From an archaeon (GTDB lineage: Archaea > Micrarchaeota > Micrarchaeia > Anstonellales > Bilamarchaeaceae), in assembly GCA_020053355.1 (NCBI GenBank), contig JAGVNI010000008.1:1-64000 (forward strand): a stretch of 64,000 nucleotides of DNA, written 5' to 3'. The first letter of the stretch is position 1, and every line of letters starts with the position of its first letter. Of this stretch, positions 39,217-60,994 are shown piece by piece. A program made the translations under genes and the position numbers. The notes beneath the pieces were generated by a model. That model saw only the letters and a program-made list of their open reading frames with translations. It had not been told where the DNA came from and made no database searches.

Positions 39217-39372
39217 CGGGCCCGGTGAGATTTGAACTCACGACCTTCGCCTTCCGCCTTTTTGGGAAAAATGCGGCCAAAAACCGCCTTATCGCCATCA
39301 ATTAGGAGAGCGTCGCTAAAGACCCGGAAAAGCGAATGCCGTTCCGGTCTATCCAAGCTGAGCTACGAGCCC
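39217..39372 (-). tRNA. tRNA-Arg, probable anticodon CCT, with two introns
   Basis: 5' GGGCTCGTAGCTCAGCTTGGATAGA and 3' AGGTC-GTGAG-TTCAAAT-CTCAC-CGGGCCC-G. Removing CCGGAACGGCATTCGCTTTTCCGGGTCTTTA restores D-stem GAGC; a second ~50-nt intron at 37/38 gives a 75-nt mature tRNA. Anticodon stem ACGCT/GGCGA has 4 of 5 pairs (one G-T). Confidence 0.7.
39254..39287 (+). repeat. Intron element (copy in tRNA-Arg-CCT anticodon-loop intron; inverted relative to tRNA)
   Basis: CCGCCTTTTTGGGAAAAATGCGGCCAAAAACCGC. Confidence 0.7.
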
Positions 39373-40023
39373 GTACCATATGTTTTTTTCCAATTGGAAT
39401 ATTTATTCCTGTGTATGTGATTTTTAGGCGATATCTCTTTAAACCATTTGTGGAGGCCGGCCTTTCCCTTTATCCTGATGCTCTTGATACCTTTTAGGAC
39501 CGAATAACCGCGCCGATGCAGCACATCTGCAATCCAATCGAGCACTTCACGATTTTTCATAGTGATGTCAATGACGGGGTATGGACAACGGTATCTCGGA
39601 TCGTTATCAAAATACAGCGACCCGTCAGTGTCGAAAATCCCTCGGATGACCATTTTTTGAAGAACCCACGTCTTGGGTAATTTTTCTGTATTAAATAAGA
39701 TTTTGCAGCCGAGGAAAGTCGTAGCGATTTCGAAAAAGATTGAAAATGTTTTCACTGTTTATGATGATGTAATAGGTATTGTACTCTTTTCTTTCCTGAT
39801 AATATCCATTGACATTCAGGGTTGCCTGGATTAGTTTTTGAAGGTATATTCGATACCTCGTTTCAGTTTTCAAATTACCGCAAATGCAGACCTGTTTTCT
39901 TACCCTTGGCCGGCCGGATAGGCCAATCCAACCGTCGCCCATCAAAACCCCCAGCAGTTCGCACAGTTTGGGGTCGTTCGCAGGGGGCAATCTGGCCCGA
40001 ATCCCAGTTATCCGTTTATTCAA
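39363..40023 (-). pseudogene. LAGLIDADG homing endonuclease, split by an apparent frameshift
   Basis: First part LCELLGVLMGDGWIG (40023..39691), second part in another frame FIRGIFDTDGSL-type motif (MVIRGIFDTDGSLYF, 39755..39363). Shift likely near the CTTTTTCG run. Confidence 0.75.
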
Positions 40024-40127
40024 ATTAATCCGCCCTTCCGAAAAAAATATATAACCCGGGATTATTAAGGTCGGACGGACGGCATTTCCGCGGATGTATT
40101 AAAAACCGTTTTCAGCATCATTCCGGC

Positions 40128-40889
40128 ATGATTCTGCCCTTGTCCGAGCTTATCAGCCGTGCCGTTGAGCAGGCGCTTGAAGACGAGGTCGCAGTCTCCT
40201 TCTCCGGAGGCCTGGACTCCAGCGTCATCGCATCGATAGCGAAGAAACACGCCCGGGTAGAGCTGTTCACGGCAGGCGTGGATGGGAGCGAGGATGTGCA
40301 GTATGCGGAGAAAACGGCAGCGGCTTTGGGCCTCCCCCTCACTGTTTCAAGGATTGACGAGGAGAAGGCCATGGCCGTGTATTCAAAGTGCCATTCGATG
40401 CTTCCGATGGATTTTTTGAAGCTCGAGATACTCGTTCCGGCGTATTGCGCCGCGCAAGCCGCAGCCGGAAAAGGCCACAAGGTCATGCTTTTCGGCTCGG
40501 CAGCGGAAGAGCTGTTTGCCGGTTATGACCGGTATTATATTTACCGCGAAGAGGGAAAGGACGTGGATGCGCTGCTTCGCGAGGAGTACCGCACATTGCC
40601 GCAGCGCGACATGGGGTATGTCAAGAAAGTCTGCAGGTCCTTGGGCATCGAGGCGAGATTCCCGTTTTATGATAAGGGGCTTGCGGATGCGATGTTCGCC
40701 GTCCCGATAGAAGAGCGCATGGATGACCGGGCGCTGAAAAAGGGGATACTGCGCGAAGCGGCAAAAATCCTGGGCGTGCCGGATATCGCGGTCATGAGGA
40801 AGAAGAAGGCCATGCAGTACGGCTCCGGCGTCCACAAGATGCTCATTCGGCGCGTGGAAGAGATAAACCGGGATTTCCCAGGTTCATGA
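40128..40889 (+). CDS. Asparagine synthase-like PP-loop ATP pyrophosphatase (no glutaminase domain)
   Basis: VAVSFSGGLDSSVIASIAKKH; LFGSAAEELFAGYDRYY. Confidence 0.85.
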   Translation: MILPLSELISRAVEQALEDEVAVSFSGGLDSSVIASIAKKHARVELFTAGVDGSEDVQYAEKTAAALGLPLTVSRIDEEKAMAVYSKCHSMLPMDFLKLEILVPAYCAAQAAAGKGHKVMLFGSAAEELFAGYDRYYIYREEGKDVDALLREEYRTLPQRDMGYVKKVCRSLGIEARFPFYDKGLADAMFAVPIEERMDDRALKKGILREAAKILGVPDIAVMRKKKAMQYGSGVHKMLIRRVEEINRDFPGS

Positions 40890-41717
40890 GCGGCGGGATG
40901 CGGCTTCGATGACGTTGCTGATAAGGACTGCGACGGTCATCGGCCCGACCCCGCCTGGAACCGGGGAGCAGTGCGCTTTTTTTATGACGCTTTGAAAATC
41001 AACATCGCCCAGCGTCTTGTCGCCAACGCGCGTGGTCCCGACATCGATTACATATGCGCCTTCTTTTACCATGTCCGAAGTTATCAGCCCCGGCTTCCCC
41101 ACGGCGCAGATTAGGATGTCCGCTTTGCGGGTATGCTCTGCAAGGTTCCGGGTTTTCGAATGGCACACTGTCACGGTCGCGTCGCGCTCAAGAAGCAACA
41201 GGGCCAGCGGCTTCCCGACAACGTTGCTCCGGCCGACCACGACGGCATTCTTCCCCCGCAAATCTACCCCGTGGAATTCGAGCATCTTCATGACGCCAAG
41301 GGGGGTCGCAGGAAGCAGGGCATCCTTCATCCCCGCCGCAAGCTTCCCGAGATTTGCCGACGTCCAGCCGTCCACGTCCTTTTCCGGTTCTATCGCCTCC
41401 AGAACATGCACGGGGTCGATGTGCTTGGGAAGCGGGGCCTGGACGATGAAGCCGTCAACGGTCGTGTCTTTGTTGAGCCGTTTCACCAGTTTGAGGACTT
41501 CGGCTTGGGTAGCGGATTCGGGAAGCTTCTCGAGGCGTGCGGATACGCCAGCGGAAGAGGCCTTGTCCAGCTTCTTCCTCACATACAATTCGGATGCCGG
41601 GTCATTTCCGACAAGAACGATGGCCAGTCCGATAGGTTTGGCCATGGAAGCTGAACGCGCTTTCGCCTGCGCAAGGGTTGCTTCCGCGGGCTCGCGTCCC
41701 GAGAGCGTCTTGTACAT
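40884..41717 (-). CDS. folD: Methylenetetrahydrofolate dehydrogenase/cyclohydrolase
   Basis: IVLVGNDPASELYVRKKLDKA; GFIVQAPLPKHID; VVGRSNVVGKPLALLLL; PGGVGPMTVAVL. Confidence 0.96.
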   Translation of the reverse strand: MYKTLSGREPAEATLAQAKARSASMAKPIGLAIVLVGNDPASELYVRKKLDKASSAGVSARLEKLPESATQAEVLKLVKRLNKDTTVDGFIVQAPLPKHIDPVHVLEAIEPEKDVDGWTSANLGKLAAGMKDALLPATPLGVMKMLEFHGVDLRGKNAVVVGRSNVVGKPLALLLLERDATVTVCHSKTRNLAEHTRKADILICAVGKPGLITSDMVKEGAYVIDVGTTRVGDKTLGDVDFQSVIKKAHCSPVPGGVGPMTVAVLISNVIEAASRRS

Positions 41718-41800
41718 GGTTTAATCTTGTCCGCCCAAGGATTAAAAACAACGCCCTAGGACGGCCGGTTTTTATAGCATTACCCCCCATATCCCAGAAT

Positions 41801-42271
41801 ATGTCACATGTTTTACACTCACCCCAGATGACAGGCCGCGAAGCGGCCAGGAGGGTATTGACGGAACACTTCAAGTGCAAGGACAGCCCGTGGAAGAACG
41901 AGGCGAAGTGGGGGTTCCGCGATTTTTGCCCTGAAAACGAGGACATGATGCAGCCGGCCGCAGCCGAGAGAATCAGATTCGCCGAAAGCCTATTTTCGAA
42001 ACTTGAAGGGGCGGCGGCGCATGTCGGATGCGAATTGCGCGGATTGTGGAGGTTCGGAATCCATTTCATCCCCGGCCATGAACTCGTCCGCACGCTCTCG
42101 CCCGAAGGGTTCCTGCTTATTGAGGCAAATGGCGGATTCAGCCCAATCATTGTCGGGCATGAGGAAATCCTGCTGCAGTGCGGCGAGCACCCGTTCGTCT
42201 TCAGGTACACCATCAAGACCGACTTCAACCCGATTTTCGAGAATGCCGTCATCGCCGGGAGCTTCTTCTGA
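41801..42271 (+). CDS. Hypothetical protein
   Basis: In-frame ATG 41801 (MSHVLHSPQMTGREAARRVL); compact ORF. Confidence 0.6.
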   Translation: MSHVLHSPQMTGREAARRVLTEHFKCKDSPWKNEAKWGFRDFCPENEDMMQPAAAERIRFAESLFSKLEGAAAHVGCELRGLWRFGIHFIPGHELVRTLSPEGFLLIEANGGFSPIIVGHEEILLQCGEHPFVFRYTIKTDFNPIFENAVIAGSFF

Positions 42272-42275
42272 TTGC

Positions 42276-42284
42276 TTTATAAAA
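42276..42284 (+). promoter_or_regulatory. Candidate TATA box (TTTATAAAA) upstream of tRNA-Ile
   Basis: TATA consensus about 63 nt before mature tRNA 5' end. Confidence 0.4.
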
Positions 42285-42346
42285 GTTATTCGGCATCTTC
42301 AGTTTGAACGCGCGACGGCGCCGGTAACGGCATCGGGGCGCGTTTT

Positions 42347-42556
42347 GGGCCTGTAGCTCAGCTCGGTTAGAGCGACGGTCTTATATGACACGTTCTAGCA
42401 CAGTTGTCTATACGACTGAGTGCCTATGAAAGCCGTAGGTCCGGAGTTCCGCCTTTTAGGAAAAGGCGGCCCAAAACTGGGTTGCTATAACGGTGGAACG
42501 GAATTCAAAAGAGTCGGAGGTTTCGACCTGCGATTCTGCGGCTCTCCGCAGGCCCA
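42347..42556 (+). tRNA. tRNA-Ile (anticodon TAT) with anticodon-loop intron and T-loop intron
   Basis: GGGCCTG-TA-GCTC-AGCTCGGTTA-GAGC-G-ACGGT-CTTATA|intron 42386..42430|A-GCCGT-AGGTC-CGGAG-TTC...CTCCG-CAGGCCC-A; 75 nt mature if a 90-nt intron is removed from the T-loop (exact junction unresolved). Confidence 0.75.
42449..42481 (+). repeat. Intron element (copy in tRNA-Ile T-loop intron, sense)
   Basis: CCGCCTTTTAGGAAAAGGCGGCCCAAAACTGGG; two hairpins. Confidence 0.85.
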
Positions 42557-42571
42557 ATTTTTTCTTATTGT

Positions 42572-43312
42572 TCAGTGTTTTGAGTTCTGAGTTTTGGGAT
42601 TCGGGTTTTGCCAGGAATCGCCCCGCCATCCCTTTGAAAGGTGCCGGCCAAGAATCTCCGGCAGTTCATTCAGCGATTCAATGATGCAATCCGCTTTTGA
42701 CAAATCGAGGCTTGAATTCACCCGGCCTTTCAATGCTACGCTGAACATGCCCGCGGAATTCGCCGCCTGGATTCCGGATGGCGCATCTTCGACGACAGCA
42801 CAGTCTTCCGGCCGGAGTTTCATCCTTTTTGCCGCGGCTAGGAAGATATCCGGCTCCGGTTTGCCCTTCGTGACATCCGCGCCGCAGACTATCGCGTCGA
42901 AAAAATCCGATATCCCAAGCCCACCCGTCACGATATCTATGAAGCTCTTCGGAGCCGATGAAGCCACCGCAAGGGCGATGCCTTTTTTCCTGAACCCGGA
43001 GAGGAGATTGTGAAGGGCCTTGTCCGGCTTCGCGGCTTTAAGGAGAAGGCTTTCCATGACCGGGTGCTCGATTTTTTTCATCCCCTCGACGCTGGCCGGA
43101 AGAGAATGGCGTTTTATGACATCCCCCCAGAACTCGTCCTCCCTCCAGCCGAGGTAATGTTTCAGTTCCTCGGTCGTCATCGGGTACCCGAAGCGGGCGA
43201 TTGTCATCTTCTCGGCCTGGAAATGCAGCGGCTGGGAGTCTATCAGGACCCCGTCCATGTCAAAAATCACGCCTTTGATATTAGCACCGGTCATTCCGGA
43301 TATCTGATACAT
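42572..43312 (-). CDS. HAD-superfamily phosphatase/beta-phosphoglucomutase-like
   Basis: GVIFDMDGVLIDSQPLHF; VASSAPKSFI; KGKPEPDIFLAAAKRM; VVEDAPSGIQAANSAGM. Confidence 0.92.
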   Translation of the reverse strand: MYQISGMTGANIKGVIFDMDGVLIDSQPLHFQAEKMTIARFGYPMTTEELKHYLGWREDEFWGDVIKRHSLPASVEGMKKIEHPVMESLLLKAAKPDKALHNLLSGFRKKGIALAVASSAPKSFIDIVTGGLGISDFFDAIVCGADVTKGKPEPDIFLAAAKRMKLRPEDCAVVEDAPSGIQAANSAGMFSVALKGRVNSSLDLSKADCIIESLNELPEILGRHLSKGWRGDSWQNPNPKTQNSKH

Positions 43313-43411
43313 GCGAAATAAATTAAATCGCGCGTCCTGCCGCGCGTATCGGGCTCCCCATCCCCCAGCTTTTGTGAAGGATTAAAACGCCGTATCCTCA
43401 AGAGTTGCTAC

Positions 43412-45055
43412 GTGTGCGGAATCGGAGCAGTCCATGGAAAGGGACTGGCAGATGGAGAGCGTTTCATAAGAAAAAGCCTTGAAACGATTACCTACCGCGG
43501 GTTCAGCCTGTTCGAAATCGCCATCTTCCCGAACTGCGCCCTGGGCGCGAACCGGCTGGAGATAGTGGATGCGCCGAAGGCGAGGCAGCCGCAGACGAAC
43601 GAGGACGGCACTATCTCCGTGGTGTTCAACGGGGAAATCTTCAATTTCAAAGAACTCCGCAGCGAACTCATCGGCAAGGGGCACGAATTCAGGAGCGAAT
43701 CGGACACCGAGGTCCTCGCCCACCTCTACGAGGAGCATGGCGGGGGAATGGTGAAAAAACTGGATAGCGAGATGTTCGCATTCGTTTTGTATGACAGGAA
43801 ATTGGACGCATTGTTCGCCGCCCGCGACCCTTATGGGGTGAAGCCGCTTTATTACGCCATCGACAGTTCCGGGAACATGCACTTCGCCTCGGAAATCAAG
43901 CAGCTCGTGCAATTCCAGGAGATTTCGCAGGTGTTGGAATTTCCGCCCGGCCACTATATGCAGGACGGCATGCTAACGGAGTATCATATCATCCCGAAAC
44001 CAGGGGATGTCACGAAAGAGGATGTCGGGGACATCGTCCTCAACCTTAGGAATCTTTTTGATTTGGCCGTGAAGAAACGGGTGGATACAGAACTGCCTAT
44101 CGGCGTGCTTTTCAGCGGAGGCCTCGACAGCGCCGCGGTGCTCGCGACTGCGAGGAAATACAACAAGAACGTCACGGCGATAACAATCGGGCACAAGGAA
44201 TCCTCGGACAGGTTGGCGGCGAAGAGGTATTGCGACGAGTTCGGGGTCGACCTGATAGCCGAGGACGCGCCGACCGACGAGGAGCTCGCCCCCCGCATAC
44301 CGGAATTCATCAGGATGGCGGAGAGCTATGAGCCCAGGCTCATCGTCCATACGGCGTCTTACTGGTGCATCGCAGAACTAGCCCGCAGGCACGGTTTCCG
44401 CATCGTCCTCTGCGGGGAGGGAGCTGACGAGCTCCTGGGCGGGTATGACGCGTTCGAGCAGATTGAAGATGAAGAGTCGCTTTCCCGGATGCTTTACTCG
44501 TTCGTAGCCAACATCCCCCGGACCCAGTTCCAGCGCCTTGACCGCTCCACCATGGCTAATACCGTGGAGGCGAGGGCGCCGTTTTTCGATACGCAGTTTG
44601 CCGATTATGCCATGAGGATACCTCCCCGGATGAAGGTTAAGCGCGGTATGGGCTTCCGGTCGGTGAAGTGGATTTTCAGGGAAGCGATGTCGGACAGGCT
44701 CCCAGGTTACATCGTGGACAGGGAGAAGGTGCCCCTGCACAGGGGGGCCGGGTTGAAGGCTTACCAGGACCGGAAGGGTTTCCTGTACGGAGTCCTTAAG
44801 GGCAGGATGACTCCCGGCGAAGTCTCCAGCCTGCGGGCGTCGCACCCTGGATGGGTTATCCGGGACGATGTGGAAGCATACGCATTCCGGATTTTCGCGG
44901 AAGCGGGATATGCCAAGGCCGATTTCAACAGGGAAAGGCTGTATTCCTTCCTTCCAAGGTTCTCTTTTTGGGATAAAATCAGGTATTGGCCAATTAGGAT
45001 TCTCCAAAAACGGTTCGAACGCATGCGGACCGGCTCGAAGCTTACGCAGCGATGA
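43412..45055 (+). CDS. asnB: Asparagine synthase (glutamine-hydrolysing)
   Basis: MCGIGAVHG (track start confirmed at Cys-containing N-terminus); IGVLFSGGLDSAAVLATARKYN; LCGEGADELLGGY. Confidence 0.93.
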   Translation: MCGIGAVHGKGLADGERFIRKSLETITYRGFSLFEIAIFPNCALGANRLEIVDAPKARQPQTNEDGTISVVFNGEIFNFKELRSELIGKGHEFRSESDTEVLAHLYEEHGGGMVKKLDSEMFAFVLYDRKLDALFAARDPYGVKPLYYAIDSSGNMHFASEIKQLVQFQEISQVLEFPPGHYMQDGMLTEYHIIPKPGDVTKEDVGDIVLNLRNLFDLAVKKRVDTELPIGVLFSGGLDSAAVLATARKYNKNVTAITIGHKESSDRLAAKRYCDEFGVDLIAEDAPTDEELAPRIPEFIRMAESYEPRLIVHTASYWCIAELARRHGFRIVLCGEGADELLGGYDAFEQIEDEESLSRMLYSFVANIPRTQFQRLDRSTMANTVEARAPFFDTQFADYAMRIPPRMKVKRGMGFRSVKWIFREAMSDRLPGYIVDREKVPLHRGAGLKAYQDRKGFLYGVLKGRMTPGEVSSLRASHPGWVIRDDVEAYAFRIFAEAGYAKADFNRERLYSFLPRFSFWDKIRYWPIRILQKRFERMRTGSKLTQR

Positions 45056-45117
45056 CGGACATAGGGGCCGTTGCGCGCCACCCTCACCCATTATAAACAC
45101 TTTTAGACACAATAACA

Positions 45118-46659
45118 ATGGGTAAAGGAGGTGGGAGGATGGCAGGCCCAATCGTCAGGGGACGGGTGGAAGAGAGACTTATAGAGGCCATGAAGAAAGC
45201 CGGCTTCCCGCTAGCAAACTCCGCGCCGCTCCATGAGAGGCCCATGGGAACCGCGCTCTATCACGAAAACGAACTCATCTTCAACCGCGCCTTGGACGGA
45301 AAAAGCTCCGCGTTCTGCGTGATTGCCACAAAAGAGGCGGACGGCGCAGTGGCGGTCCATTGGTACAATCCTGAGCAGGACGGCAGCACGCTCCGCAAAG
45401 ACGAATTCCTCAGGAAAACCCTGCTCCCGCCGGCCGCCGGGAACGAGTTGGTCGGCGCGGTGGTTGGAAAAATATCCTCCGATGCGGCGAAAAAGAAGCC
45501 CAACCAGCTATTCCTAGACCCGCACACGCATTTCGGTTCGCTGTGTTCGCCGGTGACCGGCCCGGACGGGAAGACCATTCGGTGGGGCAACATCAAGTAC
45601 GATGACGGGGTTTCGTACCTTACGGACAACCTGCGCAAGGCGATGTTCTACCATATCGACTATTACGCGCTGACGGCACACAACAGCTTCTCGAAGAACG
45701 CGTTCGATTTCATGTCATGGGCCGGCCACCACCTCGGTTTCCTGCCTGTCCCTGCGGTCGAACTTACAGCCCCCCTTAAGGAGCCGAACGGCCCGCATTT
45801 CCTGGTATACATGAAGAATGCCAATGTCGGCGCTTACCTTGAGCGCAGCATTTTCTCCCGCAGGGAGAAACTGGACATGCCATCATATTTCAGCGGGATG
45901 GACATGAAGGGGATGCTTGATGTCCTGTTTTCGCTTCAGAAGGCGAATCTTGCAGCGCTCGGGATAGCCCATCCTGTGAATTTCAATTCCCCGAGCCTGC
46001 CGATACCGGTGGTTGGGCTCTATTCTGCGGTGGATACCGGCGCAATCAGCCTCGATGAAGCGCATATGATTGCCCAGAATTTCGACACGATTGCGATGTG
46101 GAATCCGAGCCTGCATGGAAAGGCCGACGAAATCCGCGTGCAAGACGAGCGGCTGAAAAGCTTCCTCCGCGAAGCCAGCCGCAAGCATGTCGGCAACAGG
46201 AGGCTCTGGGTGAACCAGACGAATTACGCCCTCGCAAAGGAGCTCCACGAGTGCTTCGGGATTTACACCCATTTCGAAACCGACGAGCATAAGACGCTCC
46301 CTTTCATAAGGGCGCCTGGCGGGCACGGGTACATACTGGGCGGGGACAGCCTCTGCATGGGAATGACGGTGATTGAGGTTCCGGAAGCGGGCTTTGCGGG
46401 AAGGCCGAGCGTGCCCGAACTTATCGAACTCATCCGGACGCGGGCGGTTGACATGGCTGGCAGGGTATTCGCGGTCGCAAGGCCGGAAGCCATCACCGTC
46501 CACGCCGAGCGGGCATCTATTCCGGAAGAATTGAGGAGAGTCGCCCGCAAAGCCGAGCACGCCCTCACGAGAAGGTATGCGGGCATGCTGGTGCGCGATT
46601 TCTTCGGCATGCTGTTTTCCGGCGATGTCGAGGAGATAGGCAACATGGACGGAGATTAA
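45118..46659 (+). CDS. PHP-like phosphoesterase-domain protein
   Basis: LFLDPHTHFGSLCSP...DYYALTAHNSFSKNAFDF...VPAVELTAP metal-ligand-like pattern. Confidence 0.6.
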   Translation: MGKGGGRMAGPIVRGRVEERLIEAMKKAGFPLANSAPLHERPMGTALYHENELIFNRALDGKSSAFCVIATKEADGAVAVHWYNPEQDGSTLRKDEFLRKTLLPPAAGNELVGAVVGKISSDAAKKKPNQLFLDPHTHFGSLCSPVTGPDGKTIRWGNIKYDDGVSYLTDNLRKAMFYHIDYYALTAHNSFSKNAFDFMSWAGHHLGFLPVPAVELTAPLKEPNGPHFLVYMKNANVGAYLERSIFSRREKLDMPSYFSGMDMKGMLDVLFSLQKANLAALGIAHPVNFNSPSLPIPVVGLYSAVDTGAISLDEAHMIAQNFDTIAMWNPSLHGKADEIRVQDERLKSFLREASRKHVGNRRLWVNQTNYALAKELHECFGIYTHFETDEHKTLPFIRAPGGHGYILGGDSLCMGMTVIEVPEAGFAGRPSVPELIELIRTRAVDMAGRVFAVARPEAITVHAERASIPEELRRVARKAEHALTRRYAGMLVRDFFGMLFSGDVEEIGNMDGD

Positions 46660-46696
46660 CGCTTTTACACACTTTTTTAAACTCTTTCCCGGATAA

Positions 46697-47479
46697 ATGC
46701 CGTTTATGAGGGGATGGATAGCGATTGTTTTGGTTTTTGCCGCAATGCTCGCAGGCTGCATCTCGACTGAGATGACGCACGTGCAGCACGCGGATGGGGG
46801 CGCGGACATCACGCAGACGACGGACATGTCGGCGCTGAGTTCGCTAGGCGCAAGCGACAGCTCGTATGGCTCTGCTTATTCGGAAGCGCTATCCTCGTCA
46901 TTGGAGACGGTATGCGACAAGTACGAGGAAGGCGTCGCCTGCAGCCAGGAAGACGGCACCGTGACGCTGAAAAAACACTTCAGGGCAACCGACGCGTTCT
47001 ACAAATTCGAGGTAAAAGACGAGATATTCGTCAAGAAATACAGGCTGACAGTGGACCGCATCGAGTCCCTTGGCGACGTTTCATCCAGTTCGCTCGCAGC
47101 CAACACCACGGACAGCGCGTATTCAAGCCCCTACGGGACCAGCCTGGGCAGCTATGGGGATTTGGGCGCGGATGATACTGTGACGCTAACGTCATCAAGG
47201 TCGAAAATGATAGGGAACCTGCTCGAGCAGATGAAAATGGAGTATACGTACACAATCCGGATGCCCGGAAAAATCAGCGAGGCGCAGGGCGCGGTTTCGC
47301 AAAACGAGAGCGAAGCGACATTCGACCTCATCAAGCAGATGCAGGACCGCAAGCCGATTGTGGTCATGTCCGAGGAGGTCAACTGGCCGCTCGTTCTTAT
47401 AGCCGGCATTTTCGGGTTCATGGGAATCGTGCTTGCAGCCCTAGGCGTGATGCTGATGCTCAAACCAAAACAGGTGTAG
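46697..47479 (+). CDS. Lipoprotein with C-terminal TM, paralog of 37380..38105
   Basis: AAMLAGCIST lipobox; YTYTIRMPGKISEAQ...ATFDLIKQM...KPIVVMSEEVNWP; C-terminal TM. Confidence 0.8.
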   Translation: MPFMRGWIAIVLVFAAMLAGCISTEMTHVQHADGGADITQTTDMSALSSLGASDSSYGSAYSEALSSSLETVCDKYEEGVACSQEDGTVTLKKHFRATDAFYKFEVKDEIFVKKYRLTVDRIESLGDVSSSSLAANTTDSAYSSPYGTSLGSYGDLGADDTVTLTSSRSKMIGNLLEQMKMEYTYTIRMPGKISEAQGAVSQNESEATFDLIKQMQDRKPIVVMSEEVNWPLVLIAGIFGFMGIVLAALGVMLMLKPKQV

Positions 47480-47481
47480 CG

Positions 47482-48411: not shown

Positions 48412-48439
48412 TCTTTTGCTAATCTTTTTTTTTATAAAA

Positions 48440-49060
48440 TCATTTCATGATGCTCGAGAGCACCCGGTAGGCGCGCTCGGTGTCAGCCTGGCGCACCACA
48501 AGCAGCGTGTCCGTGTAGCAGGATATGAATTCTACGACGTTTATTCCCTCTGAAGCCAGAGAGCCCAGGATATGGGATATCACGCCCGGCACTTCCTCCA
48601 ATTCCTCCGGGCTCTCTATTGTTATGAGGTTCAGGTTGTCCTCCCGCTTCCAAAGCGCCTTGGGCGGGATTTTCTCGAGTTCCCGCTGCTCCAGGATGTA
48701 TGTCATATATCGGCCGGATTTGACATGGGTCAGGGGGTGGATGCCCTCGATTTCACGCTTGGCTATCACGACGGCCACCTTGCTTTTCAGCACCATGGAG
48801 CTCTTGCCAAGGACGGCAAGGATGCGCGCCTCCAAATCATTGTCAACCCGGTCCATCCGCGCCCCAAGGCGGATGAGGGCCATCTTCACCGCACCATGGC
48901 GCTTGGCCGACCCGAACGCATCGATGGATATCTTCCTTGCGAGGGCGGAATGGTTCACGACGCCCTGGCGCAGGACCTCCTTGAGGTACGGCCTCTGCTT
49001 CACATAAAGCCAAACGAGTTCCGAAATGCTTTCCATGATGGGTTCCCCCGTTGCCGCCAT
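48440..49060 (-). CDS. ACT-domain-like regulatory protein
   Basis: C-terminal LITIESPEELEEVPGVISHILGSLASEGINVVEFISCYTDTLLVVRQADTERAYRVL; start 49060 or 49036. Confidence 0.75.
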   Translation of the reverse strand: MAATGEPIMESISELVWLYVKQRPYLKEVLRQGVVNHSALARKISIDAFGSAKRHGAVKMALIRLGARMDRVDNDLEARILAVLGKSSMVLKSKVAVVIAKREIEGIHPLTHVKSGRYMTYILEQRELEKIPPKALWKREDNLNLITIESPEELEEVPGVISHILGSLASEGINVVEFISCYTDTLLVVRQADTERAYRVLSSIMK

Positions 49061-51073: not shown

Positions 51074-51164
51074 ACGGTTCGCCGTTCAGGCTGTTATGCA
51101 TAGGAAGAGGGAGTGAGCCTGCTTAAACGCAGGCTTCATATTTTTTCTTACCCAAGGGGATTGC

Positions 51165-52547: not shown

Positions 52548-52556
52548 CGCCGGCCA

Positions 52557-53219
52557 TCATGCTTCGTCTTCTGCAAGGCTGTTCCGGAACAGCATGAAAA
52601 GGACGCCGACAGCGCCAACGCCCAGGAGGAGCACGACATAGACTACGTACCCAAGGGGCGAATCGAGGTTGTTTTTCGTAGTGGCCGGGGCTTCAAGCTC
52701 GTTGTCCTTGATTATGGTTGTCTTTTTCCGGGTTTCCGCGGGCGGCTGCTGCGGTTCAGGCGGCGCGACCGTATCGTTAGCCACATTGTCACTTGCGGCC
52801 TGCCCTGGAACTATGTAAGCATCCACGTCGCCGGTCTGCTCCGGCGTGTCATTCTGGCCCGGGAACACTTCCGGAGCCGGGGATGCGCCGCATTCTGCCT
52901 GAGTCGGGCAGTAGTTGGGTGCCATCATCTGGATGCACTCAGCGCCCATCTGCGATGGGGCGACGACGGGACAGCTCACTATCTTGCCGCTTGGCTTGTA
53001 GAATGTGCTGCCTTCGCCAGGAACGGTGGAAACCACCCTGACGATGTTGCCGAAGCATTTGTAGACGGCCTGGGTATTCGGCTCCAGGCACATTTTTGCC
53101 GCGGTCTCGTTGACGAACGCCGCCCCGTCATCACCTGATTCTACGAGGATTACAGCGAAGCTGGCCGGCAGTAAAAGTAAAAGTGATAGTGAAAGATACG
53201 TTACCCATCCCATATACAC
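52557..53219 (-). CDS. Secreted/membrane-anchored protein
   Basis: N-terminal signal peptide and C-terminal TM (YVVYVVLLLGVGAVGVLFMLF). Confidence 0.7.
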   Translation of the reverse strand: MYMGWVTYLSLSLLLLLPASFAVILVESGDDGAAFVNETAAKMCLEPNTQAVYKCFGNIVRVVSTVPGEGSTFYKPSGKIVSCPVVAPSQMGAECIQMMAPNYCPTQAECGASPAPEVFPGQNDTPEQTGDVDAYIVPGQAASDNVANDTVAPPEPQQPPAETRKKTTIIKDNELEAPATTKNNLDSPLGYVVYVVLLLGVGAVGVLFMLFRNSLAEDEA

Positions 53220-53314
53220 ACCTATCTAATTTATGAAACAAATAGTATAAAAAGCTACCCTTTGCCACCTCGAAGGGCAAAGGATGGCAAGCCAGCGCTC
53301 CGGCCGCCTGCGGG

Positions 53315-53590
53315 CTACTTCTTTGCGGTCACGACTATCAGGTGGTAGCCGAACTCGGTCTTGATGGGAGCTGAAACCACGCCCACAGAAAGCGAGAACG
53401 CGGCGTCCTCGAACTCTTTCACCATCTGGCCCTTCCCGAAGAAGCCCAAATCGCCTCCGGATTCCCCGCTAGGGCATTTGGAGTGCTTCTTGGCGACTTT
53501 GGCGAAATCCGCGCCTTTGTCTATCTCGGCTTTCAGCTTCTTCGCAGTCTTCTCGTCCTTCACTAGGATATGGCTTGCCCTTACCTGCAT
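53315..53590 (-). CDS. Parvulin-type peptidyl-prolyl isomerase
   Basis: [65 protein letters not shown]. Confidence 0.96.
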
Positions 53591-53622
53591 GAATTCACCT
53601 CTTAGTTTTTCACCTTATGGCT

Positions 53623-54807
53623 TCATGGCTGAATCCATTCTATTTCGTAGTATTCATATTCGCTTCCGGGGAGGTCGATGGTCTTTATCACGTAGTACGT
53701 CACGCTGCTTTCCCGATCCGAAATCGCCATCATCATCTCGAGCCCGAACTTGTTGCATTCCGCTAGGGCCTCGGCCAGCCCCTCGCCCCCGATATATTCA
53801 TCTTCTGTCAGCGAATACATCAGGTAGCGGGGCGTGCCATCTTTCGGCGTTTCAATCCCGCCTTTTTTCCTGTGATAGAGGAGGAAATCCAGGCGCGGCT
53901 TCTTCGGATTGACCTCAATCGGCGTTTTCTTGCCCGGAATCGCGAGTATGAACGTCTTTTTCACGCTGTGCGCGACGCGAATCGCCCGCGCCCATTCCGA
54001 TATGATGAGCTTGTGCTTGCGGGGGAACACGTGGATGACGTGCTTGGAGTGCATCCATTCGTCCTCGCTTCGCACAGGGGATGCGCCCGGGAAGTAGATG
54101 CGGAAGTGCGTCCCGAACTTGAACCCGGTCTTCACCACATAGCCGCGCTTCCTCCAGTCCTCATATACGAGGTACATGTCGCTGAAGAACTTAATCCTCT
54201 TGGAAGCGGCCTTCTCGATATCGGCAAGGCGGGCGTTTTTCAGGTGCAAATCGCCGTGCTTGAGCAGGAAAATCGTCTCGTAGATGTCCAGTTTCGAAAT
54301 CCTTCCGCGGTGCGCTGCCTTGTACGTGCCGAACTGCCCTATCCAGTAGCGCTCATAGAGCTCCTTCCCCACCCGCTCGTCATCGACAAGGGTTATCAGG
54401 TCGTTCGGGAAGAAAAGCCCCTGGAACGAGAAGGAGGCGAGGGTGAAATCGCCGCCGGCGTATTTCACAGACAGGCTGCGGCCGTAGTTCCCGTCCGCCT
54501 CGTTCATCCCGCGCAGGATGAGCCCCTTGTCGCGGTAGTCCTTGTAAGTCAGGTATCTTGCCAGGAGCTTCTTGTTCCGGAGGAATTGCGATGCGACTTC
54601 GTTGAACGAGAATTCGTTCCCGACAGAATCGTAGCACCTGCCGTTCCTGATATCCATGACATACAGCGCTTCCTCTGGGGACAGGTAAATGACTCCCCTT
54701 ACCATCTGGCCGTAAAAACCGTTCGCAAGCGACGAGACGTCGGGCGCCTCCTTGACGCAGAGCGAATGCTTTTTCCGGTCCAGCTCAAGCTTAATCATAA
54801 GCGACAT
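53623..54807 (-). CDS. endA: tRNA-splicing endonuclease, epsilon2 (three-unit) type
   Basis: 394 aa; YLVYEDWRKRGYVVKTGFKFGTHFRIYFPG...HSKHVIHVFP catalytic-domain motifs plus N-terminal and C-terminal EndA-like units. Confidence 0.85.
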   Translation of the reverse strand: MSLMIKLELDRKKHSLCVKEAPDVSSLANGFYGQMVRGVIYLSPEEALYVMDIRNGRCYDSVGNEFSFNEVASQFLRNKKLLARYLTYKDYRDKGLILRGMNEADGNYGRSLSVKYAGGDFTLASFSFQGLFFPNDLITLVDDERVGKELYERYWIGQFGTYKAAHRGRISKLDIYETIFLLKHGDLHLKNARLADIEKAASKRIKFFSDMYLVYEDWRKRGYVVKTGFKFGTHFRIYFPGASPVRSEDEWMHSKHVIHVFPRKHKLIISEWARAIRVAHSVKKTFILAIPGKKTPIEVNPKKPRLDFLLYHRKKGGIETPKDGTPRYLMYSLTEDEYIGGEGLAEALAECNKFGLEMMMAISDRESSVTYYVIKTIDLPGSEYEYYEIEWIQP

Positions 54808-54935
54808 CTTAAGCGGAATTTCCGAAATCAGGTGGATATCGCGTCGAACCCATTTAAACCTTCCTCGAATGGATTGCGCCTTCGCAGGCGTGGGCGGGCA
54901 TACCTTTAAAATAACGTTTAACCATTAATTATAAC

Positions 54936-55835
54936 ATGCACTCGAACAAGCCAGGCGTATCCACGGCCCAGGGGGCCGACTACGGCCACCGGGGGCTCAT
55001 GGCAAGGCTCCGGGAGCTTATGCCGCACCGGCTTGCGCCTGAACGCATAAGCCGCTTCGAGAATATGGGGGCGATAGGGAGCGGATGCATGGGCCGGGTG
55101 TTCAAGGCGTTCGACACCCGCCTGGGGATTGATGTCGCCCTCAAGATAGCCTCGCGCCATGAGCGCGCCAAAATCAGCATAGAGAACGAGGTCAGGGCGC
55201 TTTCCGATATACGCCATGGCAATATCGTCCGGCTTCTTGATAGCGGCATATTTAGCGACGGCCAGTATGGGGGAATGCCGTTCCTTGTGATGGGATTGGT
55301 CTTTGGCGACAGCCTCAAGGGCATCCTCGATAGGGAGGGGACGCTGGAATGGGGCCATGCGAAGCATATGCTGATGGAGCTTTGCGATGCGTTATCTGCG
55401 TCCCATGAGGCCGGATTCGTTCATCGGGACGTCAAGCCCGAAAACATCTTAATCGGGAGGGATGGGCTTACCCTGGTTGATTTCGGCGTATCCGAACCCA
55501 TCTTGTCCAGGTATTCCATCCGGAACCTGACGGTTTCAAGGTTCTCGCCCGGAAACATCGGATTTGCCGCCCCGGAGACATTCTTCGGGAAAAGCGACCA
55601 AAGGACGGACATATATTCCGCCGGGATGCTCATGCGCCGGATGCGCGTAGGCAGCCTGCCTCAGGACCCGTCATTCATGTTCAGCGGCACCATGCCCGCC
55701 GAGGCGGATGCGGTGCTCGCCGAAGCGAGGCTTTCCGAGGCGGAAATGATGATAATAGCCAGGGCGACAGACAGATGCCCGGAAAAGAGGTATGAATCGG
55801 CTTCCCAGATGAGAGCTGCGATTTATTGCGCATAA
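54936..55835 (+). CDS. Ser/Thr protein kinase (eukaryotic-like)
   Basis: IGSGCMGRVFKAFD; VALKIA; FVHRDVKPENILI; LVDFGVSE; APETFFGKSDQRTDIYSAGML. Confidence 0.93.
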   Translation: MHSNKPGVSTAQGADYGHRGLMARLRELMPHRLAPERISRFENMGAIGSGCMGRVFKAFDTRLGIDVALKIASRHERAKISIENEVRALSDIRHGNIVRLLDSGIFSDGQYGGMPFLVMGLVFGDSLKGILDREGTLEWGHAKHMLMELCDALSASHEAGFVHRDVKPENILIGRDGLTLVDFGVSEPILSRYSIRNLTVSRFSPGNIGFAAPETFFGKSDQRTDIYSAGMLMRRMRVGSLPQDPSFMFSGTMPAEADAVLAEARLSEAEMMIIARATDRCPEKRYESASQMRAAIYCA

Positions 55836-55875
55836 GAAGCCCCCCCCCAGGCTCCGGATAAGGCTCAACCAAGGG

Positions 55876-56532
55876 TCAGCCAAGAAGGGATTCGAGTTTT
55901 ATACGGGATTTGCCTGAAAAATCCAGGATTTCAATATCGAATCCGGGCGGCGGAATCATCGAAGCGGCGGGTTTTAGCCATGCAAGCTTCATGCCTGCCC
56001 GTTTTGCCGACTCGCATCCGGAATAGGAATCCTCGATGACAAGGCATTCGGATGGGGTCACTCCAAGCGCCTTCGCCGCATGCAGGAAGGGTCCGGGGTC
56101 TGGCTTTCGCACCACTAGGTCATCCCCGCTGACGATTAAGTCGAAAAGGCCTTCTAAGTGCAGGGAATCGATGGCAGCCTGGACGTTGGTGCGGTGGCTT
56201 CCCGATACAATCGCGGTATGGATGCCCCGCTTCCGAAGCAACGAGATGAAATCCCTCACACCCACAGTCTCTTTCAGCTCCCCTGCACGCACGCGGGCTT
56301 CGTACGCCGCCTTGCGTTGCGTTACGAGGCCGTCCACATCCAGCCCCAACCCCCGCTCTTTCACAAGGACCTCGAATATGTGCCTTGAGCCGGTGCCGGC
56401 GAATTCGCGGTACCACCGCTTCTCCGGGACAGTGATGCCATACGGGGCGAGCAGCTCCAGGAATGTCCGCATATGGAGGGGCTCGGACTGCACAACAACG
56501 CCGTCGAAATCGAAAAGAACCGCATTTATCAT
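55876..56532 (-). CDS. HAD-superfamily hydrolase
   Basis: AVLFDFDGVVVQSEPLHM; SGSHRTNVQAAI; RKPDPGPFLHAAKALG; VIEDSYSGCESAKRAGM. Confidence 0.92.
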   Translation of the reverse strand: MINAVLFDFDGVVVQSEPLHMRTFLELLAPYGITVPEKRWYREFAGTGSRHIFEVLVKERGLGLDVDGLVTQRKAAYEARVRAGELKETVGVRDFISLLRKRGIHTAIVSGSHRTNVQAAIDSLHLEGLFDLIVSGDDLVVRKPDPGPFLHAAKALGVTPSECLVIEDSYSGCESAKRAGMKLAWLKPAASMIPPPGFDIEILDFSGKSRIKLESLLG

Positions 56533-56585
56533 GCGTAGAAACCGGCATGCAACGCTTTAAAATGATTTTCAGGCGATAACTGTTC

Positions 56586-57329
56586 ATGAAAGCGCTCATT
56601 TTGGGACTGATTCTGGCTTCGTTGGTGATTTCGGGCTGCGTGATTTTCGGGGAGCAGCAGAACGTGACAAACGATACTAACGTGACACCGCCGCCGCCAC
56701 CCCCGCCGCCAAAGACACCGACGATGTCCATCTCAAGCCCTGCTTCAGGAGATGTCATAATGAGCGAAACTGACACCGCAGACGTCACGCTGATGCTCAC
56801 CACGCAGAACCTGATTGTCAAGTCTCCGGGCGGAGCTGCCAAGGTCGGCGAGGGCCACTTCAGGATTACGGTGGACGATGGCGTCCCCCAGCCCGTCACG
56901 ACGAAGACGTACCTTATCAGCGCCCTCGGCGTTGGCGAACACAGGGTCAAGGTCGAGCTCCTTAACAATGACCGGACGCAGTATTCGCCAGCCATTTCCA
57001 AGGAAGTGACATTCACGATTGAGAAGCAGAAGCCCGCCGAATACGTCCCGCAGGACTATACGGTGTCAATCAGCGACACCGCTTACACCCCGTCTTCCCT
57101 GACCGTCAAGGTCGGCGACACGGTCACCTGGACGAACAATGGCGCAAGGCCCCAGACCGCGACCTGCTTCATAAACGGCGCCAAAGTATTCGACACGCAG
57201 ACGCTCGGGCCCGGGAAAAGCGCCACTATCACGATGAATGAGATGCTCGAGTGCGACTATTACTCCATTCTCTTCAGGGCGCTGACCGGCAAGATAAAAG
57301 TCGAGAGCAACGGCACCCAAGCCGGTTGA
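56586..57329 (+). CDS. Lipoprotein with C-terminal cupredoxin-like domain
   Basis: LVISGCVIF lipobox; VSISDTAYTPSSLTVKVGDTVTWTNNG...GKSATITM...LTGKIKVES. Confidence 0.8.
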   Translation: MKALILGLILASLVISGCVIFGEQQNVTNDTNVTPPPPPPPPKTPTMSISSPASGDVIMSETDTADVTLMLTTQNLIVKSPGGAAKVGEGHFRITVDDGVPQPVTTKTYLISALGVGEHRVKVELLNNDRTQYSPAISKEVTFTIEKQKPAEYVPQDYTVSISDTAYTPSSLTVKVGDTVTWTNNGARPQTATCFINGAKVFDTQTLGPGKSATITMNEMLECDYYSILFRALTGKIKVESNGTQAG

Positions 57330-57350
57330 TTTTTTGATATTCTTTTTCTA

Positions 57351-57632
57351 TTAATATTCTATTTCTATTTCCCCTTTCATCAGCCACACCTGGCAAGCCA
57401 GGCGGTTCCTTGGCGAGTTCGGGAGGCCGGCCCGATGCAGCGTCTCGATTTCCTGCTGGGTCTTGTGGTTGAGGTTGGCGACGCCGGAGAGTATTACGCA
57501 TGCGCAGATGGGGGTGCTGCCATCCTCGCAGCCCTGCGGGAAGGACGTTTTCTCCCAAAGGAATGGAAGGATTTGCGAGCCATCTGGGACGATGATTTCG
57601 ATTCCGTCGTTTTTTACCCTGATTTTGGCCAT
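57351..57632 (-). CDS. 2Fe-2S ferredoxin-like protein
   Basis: From ATG 57632 MAKIRVKNDG; CEDGSTPICACVILSG...RLACQVWLMKGEIEIEY. Confidence 0.7.
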   Translation of the reverse strand: MAKIRVKNDGIEIIVPDGSQILPFLWEKTSFPQGCEDGSTPICACVILSGVANLNHKTQQEIETLHRAGLPNSPRNRLACQVWLMKGEIEIEY

Positions 57633-57633
57633 T

Positions 57634-58356
57634 TCAGGGCGCCCCGGGCTTTTCCCCTGCAGGCATGCTGCCGCCGGCATCCCCGCCCGCATCCGCAGGC
57701 GCGCGGTCCGCTTCCGCATCAATGGCTTCGAAAAGCTTGGTCTGCATGATGTTTTCAAGCGTCTTCCATTTCTGCCGTATGAAGGGCTCGAGAAGCTTGC
57801 GGCTGGCCTTGTCTTTGAGGGCCTTCACGGTCTTCGGGTCGCTGGGGTAGCCGCTCCCGAAATCGCACGTGGCCTTCTTTATCTCCTCGATTTTGTGGTC
57901 CCGGATAATCTTGGCGCAAATCGACGCGGCCGCCACAATGGGATAGTTCTCGTCCGCCTTGTGCTCGGCCTCGAATTTCGTCACTCCGAATTTCTCCATG
58001 CGCTTGCGGAACGTCCAGGCGTAGCGGTCGGGCATGTCAACCATGGCATCGCCCCCTTCGGGGAGCTTCTTGATTAGGTCGGCCATGACTTTGGCCTCGA
58101 TGTCGTTGAGGGACATCTCGTCCATGAGCTTATTCAGGTCCATGGCGCTGATTTCCACCCAGCGGAATGTCACGAAGCCTTTCAGCTTGTCGTAAGCGGC
58201 CTCCCTTTGGGCGGCAGTTAGCGCCTTCGAGTCCTTGGAAGCAAGTTTCTTGAGCTGCTTCTCGTCCTCCCTCCTGCAGGAGGCGCAGCACACGACTAGC
58301 GGGCCTATCACCGGCCCCCTGCCGGCCTCGTCGATTCCGGCTATCATCGACAGCAT
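57634..58356 (-). CDS. rnhB: Ribonuclease HII
   Basis: IAGIDEAGRGPVIGPLVVC; KDSKALTAAQRE; AEHKADENYPIVAAASICAKIIRD; GSGYPSDPKT. Confidence 0.96.
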   Translation of the reverse strand: MLSMIAGIDEAGRGPVIGPLVVCCASCRREDEKQLKKLASKDSKALTAAQREAAYDKLKGFVTFRWVEISAMDLNKLMDEMSLNDIEAKVMADLIKKLPEGGDAMVDMPDRYAWTFRKRMEKFGVTKFEAEHKADENYPIVAAASICAKIIRDHKIEEIKKATCDFGSGYPSDPKTVKALKDKASRKLLEPFIRQKWKTLENIMQTKLFEAIDAEADRAPADAGGDAGGSMPAGEKPGAP

Positions 58357-58495
58357 ACGCTAAGGATAGACTGGAAGCTAATATAAAACGAGGTTTGCTG
58401 GGGGGAAAACGGGCGGATGCGATGGATTGGGCAGGATTGGTTGGGATAAAACAAGGGGGAGATAATAAAAGATAGAGGCTGAAGGGAAACCCGCT

Positions 58496-58753
58496 TCAGT
58501 AGCTCATATTTCTTTTCTCGACTATGATGAAGTCGCCGACAGCGAGCACGCTTTCGTAGGGAATGTGCACCATGCCGTCTTCTTTCTTCATCTTTCCGGC
58601 GACACCGCTGTCAGGGTTGGGTTCGACAATCATGCTCTCGATCTTGCCGCTGACCTCATTGACCTCAATGTCCACAAGCCTACCGAAGTCGTCGCCTTCG
58701 TTGGTCACTAATTTTTTTCCAGAGAGTTGTCTCGCTATAAGATACTTGGCCAT
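58496..58753 (-). CDS. PRC-barrel domain protein
   Basis: GKKLVTNEGDDFGRLVDIEVNEVSGKIESMIVEP...IPYESVLAVGDFIIVEK. Confidence 0.92.
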   Translation of the reverse strand: MAKYLIARQLSGKKLVTNEGDDFGRLVDIEVNEVSGKIESMIVEPNPDSGVAGKMKKEDGMVHIPYESVLAVGDFIIVEKRNMSY

Positions 58754-58855
58754 TACACCACCAATAAACGCTGCTGTTGTTAGCGGATTTGCAGTTCAAG
58801 TTTATAAATATTGTTATGACGCCGGGGGAGCCCCGCGCCCGCATGCGGACGTGGA

Positions 58856-60292
58856 TTATGACTTGAAATCGAGGGTGTGAAGGCGCCCGCCCTTGAGCTC
58901 GTACACCGGCACCAGCGCCGGCGTTGGAACATGGCCCTGTTTCACCTGGAAGTCCGTCCGGTCCTGGAAGGTCCCTGAATTGATTAGTAGGGTCCCGCGG
59001 TACTGGGTGTAGCCGTTCTTATGAACGTGACCGGAGTGGAAGATATCAGGCGGTTCCTCGATGACCATGTAATCCACGTTCTCCGGGATGATGAGGTTGC
59101 CGCCGTAGATGGGGGAAAGGTGCCGCCGTTTCAGGTATTCGACCATGACCTTTTCCGGGTGCATATAAGACGCGCCAGGGATGTTCGCTATCATGGAGTC
59201 GATGGACGTCCCGTGGTAGACGAGATGCTTGACGCCTTCGATGGAGAGGGTGCACGGGTTCCCAATGGCCGTGATGTCGCAGGATATGAGGTCTTTGCCC
59301 AGAGCCGGCTGGGGCTCCCCGCGGCGGACCGCATCGTGGTTGCCGGGCGCGGCGATGACTTCGATATAATCGGGCAGGTCGTTCACGAAATCATCGAACA
59401 TCTTATACTGCTGGTAGATGTCTTTAACGACCAAATCCTTCTCCTGGTTCGGATAGATGCCTATCCCGTCAACGATATCGCCCGCTATCAGGAGGTACTT
59501 CACCTTGCCTGCGAGTTCGCGGGCTTCCCCGCGGCCATGGAGCCAGTCGGTGAATGATTTGAGGTGCTTGCCGAGGAAATGGCGGCTCCCGAAATGGATG
59601 TCTGAGAGATATGCGACCGCCACGTCGTTCTCGGCGCGCCGCTTCTCGCGCACGACGGGGAGTTCCGGCCATTCGATATCCTCGGCAATCATGTACGGTT
59701 CGAGTACCTTCCCGGTTATGGCGACGATGTCGTCTTTGAGCACGGACTTTGCCTTGTCCAGGATTTTCTCGTTGAACCGGGATTGGGATATGACGACCTT
59801 GAAGGTCCCGGTCATGTCCTCGACTTCGAAAAGAAGGTTGCCCTTCTTGGTCTCGCGCTTTTCAAATATGAAGACCGTGACCCGCACCTTCTCGTTGACG
59901 TGGCGCTTCACATCTGCAAGGTCGACCTGCGGGACCGAGCCGCTCCGCCGCAGCATTTTCGAAAGGCGCTCGAAGCGGTTGCGGAAATGCGCGATGAAAT
60001 TGTCCACTTCGCCTTTTGTGCGCGATTTCCCGGTGACGTCCAGGGTATGGTTGATTTTGATGTTCGGCGCGTGCTCCTTGGCGGTGGGGATGAATTCCGC
60101 CGGGCGCACTACTTCCGTGGCAGATGCGGGATTTGCCGGGTGTGCGAGCAACTGCTCGATGTCATCTTTTCCGACAAAATTCTTGTTCAGGAGGAGGATT
60201 TTCCGCAGGATTTCGTCGGACTGGTTCACGCGAAGGAGGTCTTCGGCCTCCACAGTAAGCCTGATGCCCTTCTCGGCGAGCTCTCCGAACAT
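58856..60292 (-). CDS. DNA polymerase D small subunit (DP1)
   Basis: AYLSDIHFGSRHF; LLIAGDIVDGIGIYPNQE; IEVIAAPGNHDAVRRGEPQPAL; FHSGHVHKNGY. Confidence 0.95.
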   Translation of the reverse strand: MFGELAEKGIRLTVEAEDLLRVNQSDEILRKILLLNKNFVGKDDIEQLLAHPANPASATEVVRPAEFIPTAKEHAPNIKINHTLDVTGKSRTKGEVDNFIAHFRNRFERLSKMLRRSGSVPQVDLADVKRHVNEKVRVTVFIFEKRETKKGNLLFEVEDMTGTFKVVISQSRFNEKILDKAKSVLKDDIVAITGKVLEPYMIAEDIEWPELPVVREKRRAENDVAVAYLSDIHFGSRHFLGKHLKSFTDWLHGRGEARELAGKVKYLLIAGDIVDGIGIYPNQEKDLVVKDIYQQYKMFDDFVNDLPDYIEVIAAPGNHDAVRRGEPQPALGKDLISCDITAIGNPCTLSIEGVKHLVYHGTSIDSMIANIPGASYMHPEKVMVEYLKRRHLSPIYGGNLIIPENVDYMVIEEPPDIFHSGHVHKNGYTQYRGTLLINSGTFQDRTDFQVKQGHVPTPALVPVYELKGGRLHTLDFKS

Positions 60293-60322
60293 CGTATCAG
60301 TTCCGCGGCGGGGCCGCGATTT

Positions 60323-60568
60323 TCAGCGCTCATTGAGCGTTTCCAGCGCGCTCATAATAGCCCAGATTTGGGTGCGGGCGTGAGCGGGCATGTTGATGTC
60401 TTCGGTGATGGATTCGATGACGTAAATGGCTGCGCTGACCTTGACATTGCTGTCTTCACCGGAATCAAGGCGGCCCTTCGCTTCGGAAAGGGCCCTGCGG
60501 ATGTTCTTCGGTATGCTCGTGTCGTTGACGAGGTCATCAATCATGTCGCTAATCTGCCTGATATCCAT
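60323..60568 (-). CDS. UPF0147 family protein
   Basis: QISDMIDDLVNDTSIPKNIRRALSEAKGRL...VSAAIYVIESITEDINMPAHARTQIWAIMSALE. Confidence 0.93.
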   Translation of the reverse strand: MDIRQISDMIDDLVNDTSIPKNIRRALSEAKGRLDSGEDSNVKVSAAIYVIESITEDINMPAHARTQIWAIMSALETLNER

Positions 60569-60770
60569 AATCATCACTCCCAGCCGGTATTTCCTGATAA
60601 AGTAGAATGATTGGATTTGAGGGAAAAAGAATTTAAAGATGATGAGGAAAAAACGGGCCGGCCATGAACGGCTTTCCGCCATTTCCGTCCCGAATCCTCT
60701 GAGCAAGGCTGGGCAGGACGAGGAAAAAGAAAAAAACGGGCCCGGGGGGATTGTCAGCACCGTTTTAGCG

Positions 60771-60807
60771 CACCAGTTTTTGGTGCACCTTTTTTCTAAA
60801 AAGGTGC
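60771..60807 (-). repeat. Intron element (copy in tRNA-Arg-TCT T-loop intron, sense)
   Basis: GCACCTTTTTAGAAAAAAGGTGCACCAAAAACTGGTG. Confidence 0.8.
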
Positions 60808-60831
60808 ATTTGAACCCCCGACCTACAGCTG

Positions 60832-60864
60832 CCACCTTTTAGGAAAAGGTGGACCAAAACGGTC
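60832..60864 (+). repeat. Intron element (copy in tRNA-Arg-TCT anticodon intron, inverted relative to tRNA)
   Basis: CCACCTTTTAGGAAAAGGTGGACCAAAACGGTC. Confidence 0.85.
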
Positions 60865-60963
60865 TGTAACCCTTTTCCTAACAATAGAAGGCTGCCGCTC
60901 TATCCAAGCTACCCCCGCCTTTCAGTTGGATTCGGCCAAAAACGCGAAGCGTTTTTCAACAAT

Positions 60964-60994
60964 CGGTTTTGGGCCGCCTTTTCCCAAAAGGCGG
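60964..60994 (-). repeat. Intron element (copy in tRNA-Arg-TCT D-loop intron, sense)
   Basis: CCGCCTTTTGGGAAAAGGCGGCCCAAAACCG. Confidence 0.85.

Follow-up and report, generated by a model that had tools for sequence, protein, structure and literature searches.

The transposed tRNA introns of Thermoproteales were reportedly brought to light by Fujishima et al. 2010. As reviewed, introns of this group have been transposed between tRNAs, carry BHB junctions, and are supposed to have moved at the DNA level (PMC4090602). The 16S rRNA genes of Thermoproteales hold both short hairpin-forming introns and LAGLIDADG-coding ones, whose endonucleases are able, through co-conversion, to spread a small intron nearby (PMC4496867). 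In Caldiarchaeum, a tRNA-Thr gene has been disrupted by an integrating element, and the proposed model needs a tRNA fragment repeat together with an integrase (PMC3293823). The epsilon2 EndA of Ca. Micrarchaeum acidiphilum ARMAN-2 is described as having a broad substrate range, with pre-tRNA-Ile(UAU) as a test substrate (PMC6379350, PMC12397907), and among the available passages of PMC12397907 none concerns a repeated module at intron ends.

The introns described here resemble those of Thermoproteales in that near-identical introns occupy phylogenetically different tRNAs. As far as the review goes (PMC4090602), they differ in their host, which belongs to a different phylum (Micrarchaeota, DPANN), in a defined hairpin-plus-tail terminal module that is inverted at the two ends and follows a run-length rule within each module, and in counting copies within 16S and 23S rRNA among the members of the family. 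Like the Thermoproteales 16S introns (PMC4496867) they are small BHB introns, but their LAGLIDADG genes lie outside the introns, with 3' ends at a tRNA gene. As in Caldiarchaeum (PMC3293823), the gain of tRNA introns would be tied to a mobile element, although no long tRNA repeats surround the six LAGLIDADG-tRNA pairs examined here. With ARMAN-2 they share the type of EndA enzyme and introns at many positions (PMC6379350, PMC12397907). In the full-text literature on Micrarchaeota tRNA introns, judged by titles and abstracts and with subscription papers mostly outside its scope, no such family appeared. A sequence-only reading of this DNA was aware of no described element of this kind; the module architecture and the lineage do appear new, but intron transposition in archaea was already known.

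Our starting point was the window, that is, the whole 64,000-nucleotide stretch analysed, in which that reading had placed five copies of a short hairpin element within introns of three tRNAs, and all five are present where it put them. The tRNA-Ile(UAU) gene (42347..42556, plus strand; a spliced alignment, with a weak RF00005 match at 42347-42443) has an anticodon-loop intron without the module and a T-loop intron that starts with the form we call module A (42449..42489, plus strand), consisting of the hairpin CCGCC-TTTTAGGAAAA-GGCGG followed by CCCAAAACTGGGTTGCTAT. The tRNA-Arg(CCU) gene (39217..39372, minus strand), whose homologue in genome G014 is L145, has an insert close to its D arm, and its anticodon-loop intron finishes with the reverse complement, module B, here with an imperfect stem (39254..39287, plus strand). 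Three introns, in the D, anticodon and T loops, interrupt the tRNA-Arg(UCU) gene (60737..61010, minus strand): the first begins with module A (60955..60994, minus strand), the second finishes with module B (60832..60868, plus strand), and the third, for which a BHB was found, begins with a T5AGA6 loop variant of module A (60771..60807, minus strand). The reported match of 28 of 29 positions between the Ile T-loop and Arg D-loop copies is correct, the sole difference being an A/G in the loop. With default settings, ARAGORN called no tRNA anywhere in the window because of the introns of these three genes, which were recovered by alignment to intronless tRNAs of the same genus, their anticodons being read by eye from the anticodon loops. 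Since the reference set lacks these Arg tRNAs, the aligner labels the window's Arg genes Ile or Thr; more generally, some isoacceptors are missing from the reference, so that junctions may be misplaced by a few bases and the aligner gives certain genes a wrong isotype name.

We consider it probable that the element is the end-piece of a mobile family of archaeal BHB introns in one Micrarchaeota genus. By the exon-intron maps, what is repeated is a terminal module of BHB-type introns and not an orientation-free insert: module A opens introns in the sense direction and module B closes them. Module A takes the form of a hairpin, S-TnRGGAn-S', followed by nCAnCYGnnTGYTA; the consensus proposed earlier describes a real element, but the conserved unit is longer, running to about YGGnnTGCTAT/TGTTA. 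Both one-ended and two-ended introns occur, and under a strict rule 12 of 95 carry both modules. In the window the element had seemed to be sense in D- and T-loop introns and inverted in anticodon-loop introns. This rule fails beyond the window, where some anticodon-loop introns have sense copies (L045, L054, L062) and both module orientations are found together in two-ended introns (L002, L008, L049), and the idea that loop type sets orientation was rejected after examination of the 95 introns. What looked like insertion in two orientations comes instead from the two ends, 5' and 3', of introns whose own direction is always that of the tRNA; as the modules face inward at both intron ends, both orientations are seen without any inverted insertion, and the former rule is a by-product of which intron end is kept. 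The introns are 30-240 nt long and occupy the D, anticodon, variable and T loops as well as 16S and 23S rRNA, and spliced alignments restore the tRNA bodies in genomes G000, G009 and G014.

The element is also concentrated in tRNA introns at the scale of whole genomes. A generalised pattern, TTTTNGGAAAAN{3,20}CAAAA, was run on the 1.59 Mb genome G000 and gave 25 matches against 1 for the reversed pattern, which is more than chance; one match having been counted twice, these represent 24 distinct strict copies. Twenty-one of the 24 lie inside tRNA introns and the other three directly beside tRNA ends, two shortly before a 5' end (His, Leu) and the third some 70 nt past a 3' end (Ser). Two looser copies in G000 (L010, L011) are near protein genes, as are some of those in G014, where others fall in intergenic DNA. 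The same-genus genome G014 yielded 66 matches (control 4), has modules inside its 16S and 23S rRNA genes, and carries up to three introns within one tRNA. At least one match was present in each of the 16 other genomes of the genus, G014 included, the counts of G003 (1) and G007 (2) being at background level. Outside the genus, only genus g2 and a few others had counts that departed from those of the control. Among 84,980 species genomes the strict pattern matched only three MAG records, two of them under the name Micrarchaeota and the third labelled simply archaeon, and a scan of IMG/VR for the module gave no match.

The suggestion that the element is a structured RNA module gains support from stem covariation and from a rule of run lengths. 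Over 41 distinct hairpins with a 9-bp stem, among which 34 different outer 5-mers occur, 99.2% of cells pair, compared with at most 78% in 500 shuffles, and double-change cells number 100 against a shuffle maximum of 46; the compensation noted in the window is confirmed on this set. Hairpin and tail also agree in run length: in 93 of 102 modules the T/A run of the former has as many letters, n, as the A run of the latter (permuted mean 43, maximum 60). When each distinct stem is represented by a single module, which controls for shared descent only in part, the match holds in 42 of 46 (permuted maximum 33). Among the two-ended introns, n agrees within module A in 9 of 12 and within module B in 12 of 12, but between the two hairpins of the same intron in only 4 of 12. 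Pairing of both intron ends was accordingly rejected as the source of the match, for n differs between ends, and the constraint is local to each module. From its sequence, the strand TnRGG has two possible pairing partners, its own An and the tail CCAn.

Covariation and run lengths of this strength show structural constraint, and could be read as the mark of a selected RNA structure in old introns, similar by convergence and with no recent mobility. Introns of different tRNAs and positions, however, are 79-91% identical over 100-212 nt, interiors included, with examples of 90.6% over 212 nt, 87.4% over 190 nt and 83.5% over 164 nt, which cannot be convergent; divergence is greatest at the two extremities, over the few to tens of bases in contact with the exons. 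Intronless same-genus tRNAs also exist: a check for empty sites found such counterparts in G003, G007 and G013. Convergence is hence contradicted for G014, while the short one-module introns of G000 could still have arisen in that way, and as a general account we find it highly improbable. Near-identical introns in different tRNAs and positions imply that introns have moved, and their comparison makes it well supported that they did so between tRNA genes, by transposition or by ectopic gene conversion, in agreement with the intron transposition suggested from the window.

Could such movement be explained by ectopic gene conversion between tRNA genes alone, at the same position and via shared exon stretches (GTAGCTCAG, GGTTCAAATCC), without any special mobility? 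Such conversion preserves orientation and makes a reverse transcriptase unnecessary, and several same-position pairs fit it, namely the D-loop introns of Tyr and Thr (92% over 77 nt), two T-loop introns in Ser genes (94% over 111 nt) and two D-loop introns in Ala genes (97% over 67 nt). Against this, homologues with 87-91% identity sit at different positions, where the flanking exons are not homologous: L126 in the anticodon loop of a tRNA-Glu-like gene, L134 in the D loop of a Thr gene, and L131 in a T loop, and the pair with 87% over 190 nt joins an anticodon-loop intron to a D-loop intron. Conversion alone is therefore unlikely. The ends of the introns, being inverted repeats with hairpins, and the copies beside tRNAs and at some non-tRNA places also bring to mind a MITE-like DNA transposon, bounded by terminal inverted repeats, whose insertion into tRNA genes in either direction would be tolerated because either strand could be spliced. 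Yet full-length copies do not vary in orientation: of the 119 long matches between tRNAs, 118 are plus/plus relative to the tRNA. The largest cluster, which draws its 25 introns from many tRNA genes, has 65 links, not independent of one another, of which none is inverted. Already weakened by this, a MITE-like origin is also at odds with the lack of a transposase gene within any copy, and we hold it to be very unlikely. At the listed junctions, whose positions are uncertain by a few bases, no target-site duplication was evident.

The removal of the introns is predicted to proceed by splicing. With a score based on a central 4-bp helix, two 3-nt bulges and flanking helices (cut-off 13), 59% of 41 anticodon-loop introns and 76% of 21 T-loop introns qualified, compared with 4.6% and 5.6% once the introns were shuffled and 16% and 19% when each was paired with the exons of another gene. 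None of the D-loop introns reached the cut-off, the canonical scheme not fitting them, and 12 of 27 end in the complement of the 5' exon (GCTC...GAGC type; shuffled mean 5.3, maximum 13). The window itself encodes a 394-aa tRNA-splicing endonuclease EndA of the epsilon2 (three-unit) type (53623..54807, minus strand; PF01974, E 4.5e-23), matching the ARMAN-2 epsilon2 enzyme (PDB 4fz2) over residues 6-394 with E 1e-129, which presumably removes these introns. A second small EndA-like gene was considered as a marker of intron-rich genomes and rejected, as it is also present where modules are at background level. Since the intron ends form BHB helices, selection of the module for EndA recognition is a plausible candidate role. 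As to whether the element forms part of each BHB, a check proposed earlier, the ends of anticodon- and T-loop introns do form these helices, but the local hairpin competes with the BHB fold instead of belonging to it: in 24 introns at 37 C the computed energies of the two are nearly the same, with a median difference of -0.35 kcal/mol.

These features suggest how an intron of the mobile family might work. Each would begin with module A and/or finish with its mirror, module B; the outer arm (TnRGG / CCYAn) would have a choice of two partners, the opposite end in the splicing fold or its own inner arm in the local hairpin, and the tail (CCAn) would serve as a third partner of the TnGG strand, so that the intron end would be bistable. 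Spread may take place at the DNA level, through breaks in tRNA genes repaired from intron-bearing ones, or alternatively by reverse splicing, and the single orientation of the introns fits both. A route by which excised introns are spliced back into tRNA or rRNA, with reverse transcription and recombination as later steps, would also suit the fixed orientation in transcribed RNAs, the BHB-like target sites and the copies in rRNA. EndA leaves 2',3'-cyclic phosphate ends, and reversal would consequently not be simple; moreover, no reverse transcriptase domain (RVT_1, PF00078) was detected in G000, G014 or G009, genomes 88-90% complete. The same absence speaks against group II or other retro-introns, and it makes reverse splicing quite unlikely.

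For break repair, the best candidate for the breaking enzyme, proposed with low confidence, would be the free-standing LAGLIDADG genes that abut tRNAs. LAGLIDADG_3 occurs in 16 of the 17 genomes of the genus, the exception being the intron-poor G003, and many of the matches are sited in long ORFs and probably represent inteins. The short LAGLIDADG ORFs examined (<300 aa) number 14, with the broken pair of the window taken as one. Nine of them have their 3' end against a tRNA gene, in several cases with an overlap of as much as about 30 nt. One of the nine is the window's degenerate, frame-broken ORF pair (39363..40023, minus strand; PF14528, E 3.2e-4, just below the cut-off), whose 3' end runs into tRNA-Arg(CCU) and which is possibly the relic of a tRNA-linked homing endonuclease with a putative link to the introns. 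These ORFs sit at tRNA ends and outside the introns, in contrast to LAGLIDADG homing introns, which enclose their endonuclease. That they are inserts between tRNA fragments was rejected, no long tRNA repeats flanking the six pairs examined. Apart from G003 (no LAGLIDADG and a single, background-level module match), their counts do not track module counts, and we take the tally of tRNA-abutting genes as a lead on the mobility engine. A broader proposal, that short non-coding BHB introns with bistable-module ends (hairpin, invading tail, splicing helix) form a distinct mobile class that invades tRNA and rRNA in trans via free-standing homing endonucleases at tRNA edges, seems to us doubtful.

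In practical terms, genomes of this kind may look tRNA-poor, as default ARAGORN finds none of the window's three tRNAs. At the molecular level, the matched run lengths of hairpin and tail point to an uncharacterised three-strand interaction of RNA or DNA. As to how archaea gain tRNA introns, we have here a large and recent family within one genus, with recognisable ends and with both filled and empty sites, in which the fixed orientation and the intron-poor sister G003 make the mechanisms separable by sequence and simple tests. The family thereby gives a rare handle on the movement of archaeal tRNA introns.

Some modules, i.e., the hairpin-and-tail elements that begin (type A) or, as the reverse complement, end (type B) the mobile tRNA introns, directly flank tRNAs rather than sitting within them. 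The sense of the tRNA is kept, with type B immediately before the 5' end and type A immediately after the 3' end. Such modules were found at tRNA-His (stretch L046) and tRNA-Leu (L051) of the source genome G000, and in the same-genus genomes G014 (L137, L140, and L151) and G009 (L156). Modules also adjoin protein genes in G014 and G000 (L133, 1070; L011, 1520; L079, 406), and at least those of L079 and L011 immediately follow a stop codon; L011 and L133 appear to be a single ribosomal-gene locus sampled from two genomes. Another repeated hairpin, GTGCGAGCC...GGCGAGCG, is present within long G014 introns such as L126, L131, L134, and L139, and occurs in intergenic DNA too.

Free-standing LAGLIDADG ORFs of about 212-275 aa, each with a 3' end that touches or extends into a tRNA gene (for Arg, Glu, Met, Phe, Ser, or Ala), occur in several of the genus's genomes: L252 973-1617, L253 962-1648, L276, L268, L279, L288, L290, L291, and a frame-broken copy in the window (39363-40023, minus strand). 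Intact tRNA genes are also accompanied by repeated short tRNA-end copies, e.g., CCTCGTCGGCG and GGGCCCGTAGCT (L061 1250-1900; L012 1330-1500; L003, downstream of the tRNA), part of them arranged as inverted repeats, and these copies are possible integration relics.

Most archaea decode AUA by a CAU tRNA with agmatidine. The tRNA-Ile gene at 42347-42556 of the window carries the anticodon UAU, and pre-tRNA-Ile(UAU) served as a test substrate in a study of the ARMAN-2 EndA (PMC12397907). Alongside the epsilon2 EndA, most genomes of the family contain a second EndA-like protein of 165 aa (G000:C7:41403-41636; L217 1447-1944), whose closest solved chain is 1a79 (E 2.6e-9) and which is possibly an extra subunit.
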